From: Lysinibacillus fusiformis
GTDB taxonomy: Bacteria; Bacillota; Bacilli; Bacillales_A; Planococcaceae
DNA length: 64,000 nt
Reading direction: 5' to 3'
Assembly (NCBI RefSeq): GCF_007362955.1
Contig: NZ_CP041696.1
Location: 4,774,001 to 4,838,000, forward strand
Under the pieces are notes generated by a model that saw only the letters and a program-made list of their open reading frames with translations, had not been told where the DNA came from and made no database searches. A program made the position numbers and the translations under genes. Numbering within the stretch: the stretch's first letter is position 1; each line of letters opens with the position of its first letter. Positions 56,166 through 60,761 of the stretch are shown here, one piece after another.

Positions 56166-56584
56166 GTTTGCTCTAAAACGCCCGTTAAATGCGCGGTAAT
56201 TTGTTCCACAGGGAAACCTTCAATTTGCTCACGTGGAATAAAGTAGGCTAATTCGCCATCTTTTAAAATTGCCATTGATGGTGAGCTCGGTGGGACATCC
56301 TCAAAAAAACCACGCATAGCTGCAGTCGCTTCAGGATCTTGTCCTGCAAACACCGTAACTAAATTATCCGGCTTCACTGCCGCTACCGCTTCACGCGCAG
56401 CAGGTCGTGCTAGTCCAGCTGCACAGCCACACACGGAGTTAATAACCACTAATGACGTGCCCTTCGCCTCTGCCATAAATTCATTCACTGCATCAACGGT
56501 AGTAAGCTCACTAAAACCTGCCTCCACTAACTCCTCACGCATTGGTTTTACTACTTGCTTCATATATTCATCGTAAGCGTTCAT
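56153..56584 (-). CDS. brxA: bacilliredoxin BrxA/BrxB family
   Basis: A 143-residue thioredoxin-fold protein of the YphP/YqiW group, which removes bacillithiol from S-bacillithiolated proteins. The active site is CGC in INSVCGCAAGLARPAAR. The motif FAGQDPEATAAMRGFF is also conserved. The ATG at 56584 follows GAGGGTAAAAAG. The open frame extends ten codons upstream without a better site. Position next to the ypiP-like gene suggests YphP (BrxA) rather than YqiW (BrxB), but the choice is by context only. Confidence 0.9.
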   Translation of the reverse strand: MNAYDEYMKQVVKPMREELVEAGFSELTTVDAVNEFMAEAKGTSLVVINSVCGCAAGLARPAAREAVAAVKPDNLVTVFAGQDPEATAAMRGFFEDVPPSSPSMAILKDGELAYFIPREQIEGFPVEQITAHLTGVLEQTCEK

Positions 56585-56784
56585 CTTTTTACCCTCTTTC
56601 ATATGTATTCGCAAAGCCTATTATAACAAGGTTTTTTGCATTAGTATAATATTTGGATTTCATCATTATTCACATACATTCGAATTTCCGGTTGCTTTTT
56701 TGTTGCTTTGGTTGCTAAAAAACATTAAAAATATCCTAATATCTAAATTTGCATATTACGGATTCAAAAGAGTTCAAATAAAAA

Positions 56785-56812
56785 AGCCATATCTCGTTAA
56801 AGAGATACGGCT
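56785..56812 (-). terminator. terminator of the FokI-like nuclease operon
   Basis: AGCCATATCTC and GAGATACGGCT pair over 11 positions (one mismatch). A run of six T follows on the minus strand. It lies 33 bases beyond the stop of the 144-residue gene. Confidence 0.8.
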
Positions 56813-56845: not shown

Positions 56846-57280
56846 CTAATATACTACATCTGCAAGATGAATATTTTGGTCAATCTTTAAAGTTATATTG
56901 TAATCTTGCCAAAAAGCATTATTATTATTAGTTATTATTTTCCCATCCTTTAATGATTCTTTAATTTCATTTCTGAACCTTCCTAAACCTAGATTCTTAT
57001 ACCTATTTAATCTTGGTGGTAACCATTCTACATTTGAGAAGTTAATTAGAAATGAATCTGGAATAAAACTTTCATAACTATTTTTATTAAGTTCTGTAAT
57101 TATTCCATTTTCAATTCGAATTGTGATAAGAAAGTCTTCATAAAAAGAAATGCTTAATTCGAAGTAATCTTTTTTTAATAGAAATTTATTATTTACCATT
57201 CTTTTAATCGTTTGTTCAATATTTATGATAAATATTTTTTCATAATCATCTACTGCAGAGGTTCTTATATGATAATCCAT
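56846..57280 (-). CDS. 144-residue partner of the FokI-like protein
   Basis: A soluble protein starting MDYHIRTSAVDDYEKIFIIN and containing a mixed segment ELSISFYEDFLITIRIENGI and SFLINFSNVEWLPPRLNRYK. No catalytic motif, signal peptide or membrane helix was recognised. It begins three bases after the nuclease gene's stop (TGA ACA ATG) with AGAGGGG as ribosome site, so it is translated from the same message. It has the low-GC codon use of its partner. By position it could be an inhibitor or immunity subunit, a target-recognition subunit, or an accessory effector. None of these is proven. Confidence 0.7.
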   Translation of the reverse strand: MDYHIRTSAVDDYEKIFIINIEQTIKRMVNNKFLLKKDYFELSISFYEDFLITIRIENGIITELNKNSYESFIPDSFLINFSNVEWLPPRLNRYKNLGLGRFRNEIKESLKDGKIITNNNNAFWQDYNITLKIDQNIHLADVVY

Positions 57281-57283
57281 TGT

Positions 57284-59878
57284 TCATCCCCTCTTTGAAA
57301 GTTCTTTAACTACATCCTTTGTTACCTTAAAAGTATCAAGCTCTGAATAATCAGCAAGATCTTTGTCCAATGCTTGTTCCATAACCTCTTTTATATCATC
57401 TATATCAATAACCAATTTATCTGTTATTAGTGTTTTATATACCGCATCCATAAAAATGTTTCTAGAATTATGAATTTGTCGATAATTTTTTCTATATTCC
57501 GAATGTAAGAATGTTAACACTTCGATAGGAAAAAAGATTGGCCTTGTGTCATAATTCTCAGGCAGCTTTCTATAAAAATGACTTGCCATAGTTTCATAAT
57601 TATTACTATTAAAATTATTAGAAATAAATATATGTGCACTTAGCTGTTTAATATTACTAAATTTTGTAATGTATTTTATTTGATTTAACATTTCAACGTA
57701 ATCATAAGCTTTCCTTTGCTCACCTTTACCTAAGTCATATCCTTTAGTATTCTTATTTAATTTACAGTCATAAGAAAAGACATATTGTTTCTTTTGTTCT
57801 TCAGCACCTTGTACTGTATATGTTAAAGCGAAAATCCCTTCAGGCACCTCTTTTCCTGACATTTTTTTACCCCATTTTTCAGCATTCGGAAAAATATCTT
57901 TTATAATATTAAATACATCATCCTCAAAATCTGAAGGTGAATATTTGTCCCCAATTAATTCTGGTTCCGGTAAATTTTCTAATAAATCAAATGATTTTCC
58001 TGCAACACTTGATAAATAAGATTTTGCTCGATGTTCTATAGAGGCATAAATCTTGCCAAAGAAATTCTTTGGTTCTTCCATGTTATAAACTCTGCCAAAA
58101 CTAATCGGAAAAATACAATTATTATTATATTTATCTAAATATTTCTCAAGAACCCCAACAAATACTATTACTGTAGGTGTCAAAGTACGATTTATTTTGT
58201 CAAGAACGCTGTTGGATATTGCTCCTTGTTGAATAAGTATTTGTAATGATTCGTTAGTTTGTTTGTTATCTAAATTAATGAATTTATACTTATTTTTATT
58301 ATATGCTTTTTCTGTATCCTTACTTAATTCCCACTCTGTTTCATTACAAAATGAATCAATAAGTTCCTTCACAAATGATCTAACAGTGTCTAATGAGATA
58401 TTTAGTGAGTTATATTCACTTATTTTCAGCTCAGTATTACCGCAACTTGGACATTCTAGTGAATCAATGGACGTATCATCTGTATAATCACACTCTGGAT
58501 TTTTACACGAGATACTTTTTTCTGGTTCTTCAAAAACAATCTTATCCACTATTAATTCATTAAAAATTTCTTGTTCTATTACTGTAAAATCTTTTTTTGT
58601 TGAAAGAGTCATCAGATAATCTGTCAAGTCAGCTTTTCCAGCCACAAATTTAGAATTTGAAATTAATTTATTTAACGGTATTCCAAACTTCAAAAAAAAC
58701 TTCTCTTCGATTTCTTCTTTTATTTTTGGTTCGATGCCACTATCATCTAACGAAAACATAATATTCCCTTCTTCTAATATTGTTGACCTAATAGTTCTAC
58801 TTACTTTTGATGTTTTAAAAGCTAAGCTCTCTATATCTTTAATACTTTCTAAATCAATACACTCTCTTGTATGTGCATCTTTTACTGATGGTAAAACATC
58901 CCCATTTTCCAATTGAAAAATTAGACCTGGTGAATTAACTAAAGGGCTACTTCTGAAAACAATTTTGTTAACAATAAAATCCTCAACTTCTTGTCCATTG
59001 GGTGATATCCCCTCTAAAATAGCTCCTTTAACTTCCTCTGGTTGATATTGATTAAATAATTCTGGCTTAATCTCACTTAGTGTAGTTTCAAATGTTTTTT
59101 CTATATACTTCTTAATTCCTGTTTTTTCTTTCTGAAATTTTGATCTAATTTCCAAAACACCAGCTGTAATATCGATTTGGAACATAATTGGTGCTACTTC
59201 TTTATTTCTAAACGGTTCATCAAAATCCGGCCTTGTGACGTCATTTATTTGTCTATAAACCATTACCACTAGCTTATTTTTTTCATTAGTGGCGTATGAA
59301 TATACATTATAGAAATTCTCTTTATTTGAATTCGAGTGCATATCGTCTTCAAAATCCTTTTTATACTCAGTAGGAATTTTTCTGCTTTTTTCAAAATTAA
59401 CTTTCTTATTTAATAAGAACTGAATTCCTGTACCCTTACTATCCCAATTATGCCAAGTATAAATTTCATTAATATGAGATTGTTTTTCATTCAGCATCTG
59501 ATATAACTGACATATTTGAGAGTTCTCATAAATTTTTTCATATTTTTCAGCTACTGAATTATAATATCTTATAATTGTTTTTTTCTTTCTACTTGAAAAT
59601 TCTCGTAAGATAATAATCTCTTTTTGTCCATCAGATGAAATTATACTAAAGCAATTTACTTTTTCATCCTTTTTGCTACCAGTTAAATCAACTCCTAACA
59701 AAATACCTATTTCTTCCAATTCAGAAAGTGGTAAACTATTAAGAATTTGGTTAAATTTAATCTGTAGTTGAGCAGTAGACAGATCAAGAATTTTATCAAT
59801 CGAAACTCCGGCACGTCTCCAAAATTTCAGATCAAATTTTTCTGGATTTTCAATATCGACATTTATAGACACTAGCAT
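57284..59878 (-). CDS. 864-residue protein with zinc ribbon and C-terminal FokI-like nuclease domain
   Basis: Residues 1-450 are unassigned (mixed alpha/beta, LEIRSKFQKEKTGIKKYIEK near 242-261). A four-Cys zinc ribbon occupies 458-479 (C458 and C463 in SCKNPECDYT, C476 and C479 in ECPSCGN). Residues about 645-835 resemble the FokI cleavage domain: VPEGIFAL (P679, E680) stands for PDG, SYDCKLN (D704, K706) for the VDTK catalytic pair, and GYDLGKGEQRKAYDYVEM parallels GYNLPIGQADEMQRYVEE. HIFISNNFNSNNYETM and FFPIEVLTF continue the match. The gene lies beyond the prophage endolysin, cotranscribed with the 144-residue gene. A defence role is inferred. ATG follows AAAGGGTGT. Confidence 0.78.
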   Translation of the reverse strand: MLVSINVDIENPEKFDLKFWRRAGVSIDKILDLSTAQLQIKFNQILNSLPLSELEEIGILLGVDLTGSKKDEKVNCFSIISSDGQKEIIILREFSSRKKKTIIRYYNSVAEKYEKIYENSQICQLYQMLNEKQSHINEIYTWHNWDSKGTGIQFLLNKKVNFEKSRKIPTEYKKDFEDDMHSNSNKENFYNVYSYATNEKNKLVVMVYRQINDVTRPDFDEPFRNKEVAPIMFQIDITAGVLEIRSKFQKEKTGIKKYIEKTFETTLSEIKPELFNQYQPEEVKGAILEGISPNGQEVEDFIVNKIVFRSSPLVNSPGLIFQLENGDVLPSVKDAHTRECIDLESIKDIESLAFKTSKVSRTIRSTILEEGNIMFSLDDSGIEPKIKEEIEEKFFLKFGIPLNKLISNSKFVAGKADLTDYLMTLSTKKDFTVIEQEIFNELIVDKIVFEEPEKSISCKNPECDYTDDTSIDSLECPSCGNTELKISEYNSLNISLDTVRSFVKELIDSFCNETEWELSKDTEKAYNKNKYKFINLDNKQTNESLQILIQQGAISNSVLDKINRTLTPTVIVFVGVLEKYLDKYNNNCIFPISFGRVYNMEEPKNFFGKIYASIEHRAKSYLSSVAGKSFDLLENLPEPELIGDKYSPSDFEDDVFNIIKDIFPNAEKWGKKMSGKEVPEGIFALTYTVQGAEEQKKQYVFSYDCKLNKNTKGYDLGKGEQRKAYDYVEMLNQIKYITKFSNIKQLSAHIFISNNFNSNNYETMASHFYRKLPENYDTRPIFFPIEVLTFLHSEYRKNYRQIHNSRNIFMDAVYKTLITDKLVIDIDDIKEVMEQALDKDLADYSELDTFKVTKDVVKELSKRG

Positions 59879-60077: not shown

Positions 60078-60761
60078 TTACAACGTTCGTTTCATAACAG
60101 AAATAACTAACCCTAATGCCTCACTATCTGTCATACGATCAACACGACCGCTATGGTCCACTTTCATGATGCCACGTTTATGCGTCTCTTTTAATAGATC
60201 CTTTAAATCTTGTTTAGCTGTTGATGTTAACGTGTTTGTCACTTGTGGTTCCTCCTTTGGTTGTGTAATTGGTACGGGCTTCATTGCTTGCTCAATCCGT
60301 TTCAAGAAGCTATTCCAACGTCCCTCTGCTCTGATACGGTGAGGACAATTTTTCTTTGACCAATCGTAGTGTTGTTTTACTCGTTCAATGCCCCACCCAA
60401 ATTCCTTGAGCAACTTAGCAATGTACTGAACAGCATTTTCTTCAGCTGCAGCATAACGAGGACCGCCACTTTTGCTGTAGCAGATTTCAACACCAATTGT
60501 TTTCATATTCCCTGTTCCTTTACCATCCCCACAATGCCATGCGTTACGGTTGAAAGGAATGCCTTGAATTACTTCGATATCGTCAATAGCAATGTGATAG
60601 GATACCTCGTTGTTATTACTTAACATGTATTTAATTTCATTCGCTGCTGATGCATCATTGGCTGTGTTGTGTACAGTGATATACTGTGGAATCATCGTGT
60701 ATAGAGCTTTGATTCCATACTTGCTGGATGGTAATAAATTTTGCTTGAATGCGTAAGCCAT
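60078..60761 (-). CDS. phage endolysin, N-acetylmuramoyl-L-alanine amidase
   Basis: A 227-residue zinc amidase of the Amidase_2 (PGRP-like) family that cuts the bond between muramic acid and the peptide stem at host lysis. Zinc ligands are His31 in YITVHNTAND, the His in NAWHCGDGKG and the Cys/His region NCPHRI. The C-terminal part (LKDLLKETHKRGIMKVDHSG) resembles a wall-binding helix-turn region of CwlA-like lysins. It begins one base before the holin stop, and holin and lysin are translationally coupled. It is the last phage structural or lysis gene before the cargo pair. Confidence 0.9.
   Translation of the reverse strand: MAYAFKQNLLPSSKYGIKALYTMIPQYITVHNTANDASAANEIKYMLSNNNEVSYHIAIDDIEVIQGIPFNRNAWHCGDGKGTGNMKTIGVEICYSKSGGPRYAAAEENAVQYIAKLLKEFGWGIERVKQHYDWSKKNCPHRIRAEGRWNSFLKRIEQAMKPVPITQPKEEPQVTNTLTSTAKQDLKDLLKETHKRGIMKVDHSGRVDRMTDSEALGLVISVMKRTL

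Follow-up and report, generated by a model that had tools for sequence, protein, structure and literature searches.

FokI cleavage domains are best known from type IIS restriction enzymes; their natural versions are thought of as paired with methylases, and they are the workhorse of engineered nucleases (ZFNs and TALENs). BspD6I, like the module described here, has a large and a small component, and the type IV systems GmrSD and McrBC restrict DNA without a methylase. The recognition domains of FokI form a triple wHTH (PMC10853773). PD-(D/E)XK restriction endonucleases are reported as the commonest extra effectors of BREX and DUF499 systems in PMC12839542, in which 'FokI' is used three times, in one passage comparing its DNA-binding domain with BrxA and in references. 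The nuclease described here shares with FokI and N.BspD6I/R.BspD6I (PF09254) the C-terminal cleavage-domain fold, the motif order and the split into recognition and cleavage parts, but has no adjacent methylase, and its N-terminal part, predicted to be RdgC/CENP-N-like, gave no match to the recognition domains of FokI. In the article passages and listings searched, among them PMC12839542, PMC9240713, PMC4080450, PMC10853773 and PMC7614391, no description of the family was found.

The locus lies in a window of 64,000 nucleotides of Lysinibacillus fusiformis DNA and is a compact module of two genes and 3 kb on the reverse strand. The nuclease gene (57284..59878, 864 amino acids) and a partner gene 3 bp downstream of it (56846..57280, 144 amino acids) both start with ATG. 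Their positions are those of an earlier sequence-only reading of the window, whose observation of the locus as a whole we confirm. A terminator-like hairpin lies 3' of both genes (56785..56812, reverse strand); chance alone would give one such site over the length scanned. The frames are intact in relatives at 78%, 55%, 39% and lower identity. Compared with the nearest relative, the nuclease has a dN/dS of 0.15 and the partner one of 0.12, so both frames are real genes under selection.

The location as prophage cargo is borne out. A 63-bp exact direct repeat, the attachment repeat (56563..56625), sits at the start of a bacilliredoxin-like gene (presumably BrxA/YphP) and recurs without mismatch 45.2 kb away (101809-101871 in window-extended coordinates), where an integrase gene (L034:16523-17680) adjoins it, giving a prophage of ∼45.2 kb. 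The module sits between the endolysin and the attachment site; endolysin and holin genes adjoin it, the endolysin (Amidase_2 by Pfam match; 60078..60761, reverse strand) directly upstream. The G+C content is 0.289 for the nuclease and 0.239 for the partner, compared with 0.381 for the neighbouring phage stretch and 0.35 for the host part of the window, and this AT-richness suggests that the operon was acquired as cargo.

Relatives came from translated searches. Six of 261 genomes of the host family matched, one with a doubtful fragment; IMG/VR yielded four records with relatives, GTDB genomes eight loci and plasmids ten records, all haloarchaeal. An 'order' search of 261 genomes (apparently the same set as for the family) returned five of the same loci. 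Neither of two queries matched any of 50,697 phage records; of 398 genomes sampled across the phylum, the window's own was the only one to match; and an initial scan of genome contigs gave no relative. Duplicates were merged (L001/L020, L005/L022/L027, L003/L017/L019, L004/L023, L006/L021, L010/L029 and L016/L032), NZ_CP011565 was dropped before counting (it has the species and plasmid length of NZ_CP008875) and the doubtful G012/L007 (E 7.7e-4, one stop) was excluded. The result was 21 intact nucleases, nine from Bacillota and 12 from haloarchaea, which separate in a tree that is unrooted and read for clades only. One of the 12 is split into two adjacent genes; at the Haloferax larsenii locus (L008:4700-7203) two overlapping genes are seen, split near the border of the RdgC-like module and the zinc ribbon. 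A broken Bacillota copy on a phage contig (L002:8001-10600), in which several frame breaks (or sequencing errors) split the nuclease while the partner frame is open, stands outside the 21 and was counted among ten Bacillota loci for context only.

Translation, alignment and predicted structure together give the domain content of the nuclease. In order, the predicted model has a helical N-terminal part, an RdgC/CENP-N-CENP-L-like module (residues 140-394; 58697..59461), a zinc ribbon (C458, C463, C476 and C479; 58442..58507), a degenerate second PD-(D/E)XK-like fold (residues 495-616; 58031..58396) and a FokI-type cleavage domain (residues 624-826; 57401..58009), all encoded on the reverse strand. 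The zinc ribbon seen in the sequence-only reading holds up in the homologue alignment, with C458 and C476 present in 21/21 homologues and C479 aligned in 20/21; the position of the cysteine near residue 463 varies among the 21. The second PD-(D/E)XK-like fold has no invariant acidic or lysine residue and, on this aligned sequence, is probably inactive.

The C-terminal domain does show a PD-(D/E)XK fold of FokI type in the predicted structure, as had been proposed from its motifs. These motifs are present (PEG with E680, YDCKL with D704/K706, GYDLGKGEQRKAYDYVEM and HIFISNNF), and a further one, FEDDVF (E652), lies N-terminal to PEG. The upstream glutamate, the catalytic acid and D-x-K occur in order in 21/21 nucleases (E652, E/D680, D704 and K706), and the residues were matched by motif correspondence to what we take to be D450/D467/K469 in FokI numbering. 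PF09254 scored above the Pfam curated cut-off (25 bits) in 0/5 genomes carrying the gene (best 15.2 bits), and a Pfam scan of 12 members at E 10 gave a weak FokI_cleav_dom match in one (E 0.022). FokI was not among the matches listed for the family profile against PDB sequences, and the assignment thus rests on structure, motif register and hhalign. The last gave a probability of 38.9% (12.8% with the full-length profile, P 0.0022), using a FokI profile of only two sequences and an alignment of 53 columns around GYDL...HIFIS, with D-x-K outside it. A 534-residue protein with PF09254 above cut-off was seen elsewhere (L037:394-1998), as the sole ORF of at least 150 residues in a 3.5-kb stretch.

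Neither protein matched Pfam, PADLOC, NCBIfam or PHROGs profiles above noise, nor did the large protein match PDB sequences; among the anti-phage profiles of PADLOC-DB 2.0.0, 0 families were matched by either. Weak HypA and tRNA-synthetase matches resemble zinc-ribbon similarities and were set aside.

That the first 450 residues match nothing, as had been stated, is true for sequence profiles but not for the predicted structure, in which the front half is shaped like the DNA-binding proteins RdgC and CENP-N/CENP-L. The TM-score to RdgC is 0.38, and the best fold matches in the viral library include RdgC-like models, among them phage 'recombination-associated protein' models. At E 10, the Pfam scan found no RdgC or CENP family in the window protein; the other members were judged among the 25 commonest families listed, and RdgC, FokI and CENP-N were therefore searched separately in the five genomes. 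The RdgC family PF04381 gave no match there at E 10 (it exceeded the cut-off in 1/14 genomes of the control list), and the CENP-N family PF05238 gave none at the nuclease gene and one unrelated weak match elsewhere in G027. RdgC is a ring-forming DNA-binding recombination protein; the nuclease has no sequence-profile match to it and carries its predicted RdgC-like module fused to a cleavage domain. CENP-N/CENP-L (Chl4/Iml3) are eukaryotic kinetochore proteins without a nuclease and with no sequence-level match to the family; they bind CENP-A nucleosomes (PMC4080450).

The phage recombination models, together with the position in a prophage, would fit a phage-biology gene, serving recombination, superinfection immunity or takeover of the host, instead of a defence system. 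Relatives on archaeal plasmids and beside restriction-modification (R-M) genes, the lack of any match in the 50,697 phage records and a base composition unlike that of its phage all speak against this, and we consider it distinctly unlikely.

The partner is predicted to be an α/β protein, and its fold search matched no known fold. It is seen only beside the nuclease, on 3/3 phage contigs and in 3/3 partner-bearing genomes among the 261, and the two proteins diverge together (r 0.974). It was found neither at G109 and L027 nor at a single one of the 12 haloarchaeal loci, and searching the G109 and G001 genomes as a whole did not reveal it either. The partner is thus dispensable at the family level, and the description of the pair as 'coupled' is valid for part of the family only. 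Unlike the small subunit of BspD6I it has no PD-(D/E)XK match, and with no invariant lysine in five-sequence alignments it was rejected as a second nuclease subunit. Its best PDB profile match, Rab6 (E 0.0044), and a pYEATS match (E 0.11) found no support in the fold search and were judged to be chance. A conserved convergent ORF of ∼127 residues comes right after the nuclease in the McrBC-linked haloarchaeal clade (L009:8071-8454, L010:8066-8449, L011:8064-8447 and L030:10063-10446, all reverse strand); the partner profile does not match this 127-residue ORF, which was dismissed as a partner.

A tight two-gene operon, a partner confined to the company of the nuclease, their co-divergence and the lack of a constant methylase could also describe an abortive-infection or toxin-antitoxin-like pair, in which the nuclease would cut any DNA including that of the host, the partner would inhibit it and phage infection would free it. 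As the nuclease occurs without the partner at G109, L027 and the 12 haloarchaeal loci, and the partner gene comes second rather than first, we hold this explanation as a tentative one.

Half of the ten Bacillota loci are in prophages or viral-classed contigs, on the lysis-gene side, with four endolysin types at these five loci (Amidase_2, glycosyl hydrolase 25, Amidase_3 twice and peptidase M15). In the window, L017 and L018 the endolysin gene is immediately followed by that of the nuclease; two opposite-strand ORFs separate them in L002, and ∼7 kb including a transposase, which we take to be IS110-type, in L024. Elsewhere, the G109 nuclease adjoins TnsD/TniQ, TniB-like and Mu/rve transposase genes, and that of G132 has FtsK and replication-relaxation genes close by and hsdM at a distance of 8 kb. 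A 561-residue protein with no Pfam match between FtsK/replication-relaxation genes and hsdM (L036:14927-16612) is possibly a further cargo gene. In Paenibacillus (L025) the nuclease is flanked by a PLD-helicase on one side and type I hsdM/hsdS on the other; this neighbourhood also has a WXG100-EndoU protein, a predicted secreted toxin (L025:658-1938). In Gottfriedia (L026) SLFN/AlbA_2 and a full type I R-M system with its own hsdR come after it, and in Bhargavaea (L027) Vsr, C5 methylase and PLD protein genes are upstream. No BREX genes were recognised in the stretches seen at the ten Bacillota loci.

Five of the 12 haloarchaeal nucleases come directly after an AAA and an McrC-like gene, with a gap of 58 bp in L010. 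In L010 and L028 the McrC-like gene has its name from annotation or Pfam, in L009 and L030 it is judged by likeness, and in L011 it is called a restriction endonuclease. Two nucleases have BREX-5 pglZ as a neighbour in the opposite orientation, and in L015 pglX lies on their other flank; the nuclease is thus not a constant BREX gene. In both BREX-5 loci an AAA gene follows on the same strand (L014:6797-8452 and L015:6796-8460), that of L014 being OLD-like with TOPRIM, and nuclease and AAA gene together resemble an accessory module that runs counter to the BREX genes around it. Two more nucleases have DUF499/DUF1156/PLD-helicase genes as neighbours, which in L031 lie to either side. The remaining three are found with a nuclease-helicase pair and an integrase, with an integrase and ParA, and with a reverse transcriptase and an ArdC-like gene. 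A place among BREX-5 and DUF499/DUF1156 genes is likewise that of the auxiliary PD-(D/E)XK nucleases reported for BREX and the related DUF499 systems in PMC12839542. As raw locus counts, such neighbours are no more than suggestive of an antiviral role.

The McrBC-like genes at 5/12 haloarchaeal loci, and the apparent accessory position among BREX-5 or DUF499/DUF1156 genes at 4/12, are what a type IV-like restriction enzyme might show; it would cut only DNA with phage-type base modifications, and so would need no methylase. The nuclease has no recognised modification-reading domain, its companion genes differ between loci, and in contrast to GmrSD and McrBC no GTPase or HNH domain was found in it, the catalytic domain being FokI-type. 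We regard this as possible, with considerable doubt.

The sequence-only reading had no methylase encoded here, which is correct for the neighbourhood, not for the prophage: a D12-class DNA methylase (L034:15060-15911, 283 residues) is present at its other end, ∼39 kb off. It is the last member of a group on the forward strand (L034:9909-15911) comprising HSDR_N (405 residues), a 494-residue protein without assignment, an AAA_15-type ATPase (555 residues) and the methylase, after which comes an IrrE-like protein; the HSDR_N/AAA_15/D12 group beside the integrase is a possible second defence cluster. Given this enzyme, or host enzymes, and the association of FokI domains with type IIS systems, the nuclease could be a type IIS-like R-M enzyme with a methylase gene outside its operon. 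The window operon itself has no methyltransferase gene, cognate or otherwise; only 1/4 other phage records (which may be fragments) has a D12-class methyltransferase, 22% identical to that of the window, and the latter adjoins HSDR_N and AAA genes. The prophage D12 methylase was accordingly judged unlikely to be cognate. Type I R-M, BREX or McrBC-like genes are indeed found close to some relatives, yet these are not embedded in ordinary R-M operons in the sense of the sequence-only reading: the system beside L026 has its own R subunit (the R gene of L025 is assigned by position only), and no methylase is constant across the loci examined. A type IIS-like enzyme is thus very unlikely, and cognate methylation an unlikely safeguard.

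Our preferred reading, to which we give a probability of about 0.65, is that the pair is mobile anti-phage cargo and the large protein a methylase-independent restriction nuclease combining clamp, sensor and dimerising FokI domain, with a partner that holds or licenses it. The constant element across loci is the nuclease, and the companion genes vary by lineage, so an autonomous DNA-cutting effector is the simplest reading. With a FokI-type domain, a front half predicted to be RdgC/CENP-N-L-like and relatives among antiviral genes in both bacteria and haloarchaea, it is probably an antiviral DNA cutter, not yet described, that needs no partner methylase. The earlier interpretation as autonomous defence is partly supported, by the cleavage domain, the prophage location, the co-occurrence of the partner and the defence neighbours of many relatives. 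In this restriction nuclease, the RdgC/CENP-N-L-like module and the preceding helical part would clamp double-stranded DNA, the zinc ribbon and the catalytically dead nuclease-like fold would recognise something characteristic of foreign DNA, be it a modified base, a DNA structure or a short site, and the FokI domain would pair with a second copy to cut. In most Bacillota versions the partner would bind the nuclease and hold or license it; other lineages do without. The host may be spared by modification dependence, by DNA-structure dependence or by partner control, each of which would suffice.

A bolder version, which we think unlikely, is a mobile prokaryotic immune nuclease built on the helical-plus-clamp tandem of CENP-N/CENP-L, the clamp closing on foreign DNA with methylation unread and the FokI domain cutting. 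The family would then be an unrecognised restriction class and perhaps the prokaryotic origin of the kinetochore fold; in part of it a small protein of new fold would license the nuclease.

The module, being compact and mobile, is amenable to direct testing. If the reading is true, joining a FokI domain to an RdgC/CENP-N-L-like module, with no methylase kept across the loci, would be a new natural solution to self/non-self discrimination; the family, spanning Bacillota and haloarchaea, would supply FokI-type fusions of a new kind and a case in which to test whether the kinetochore fold has prokaryotic ancestors.
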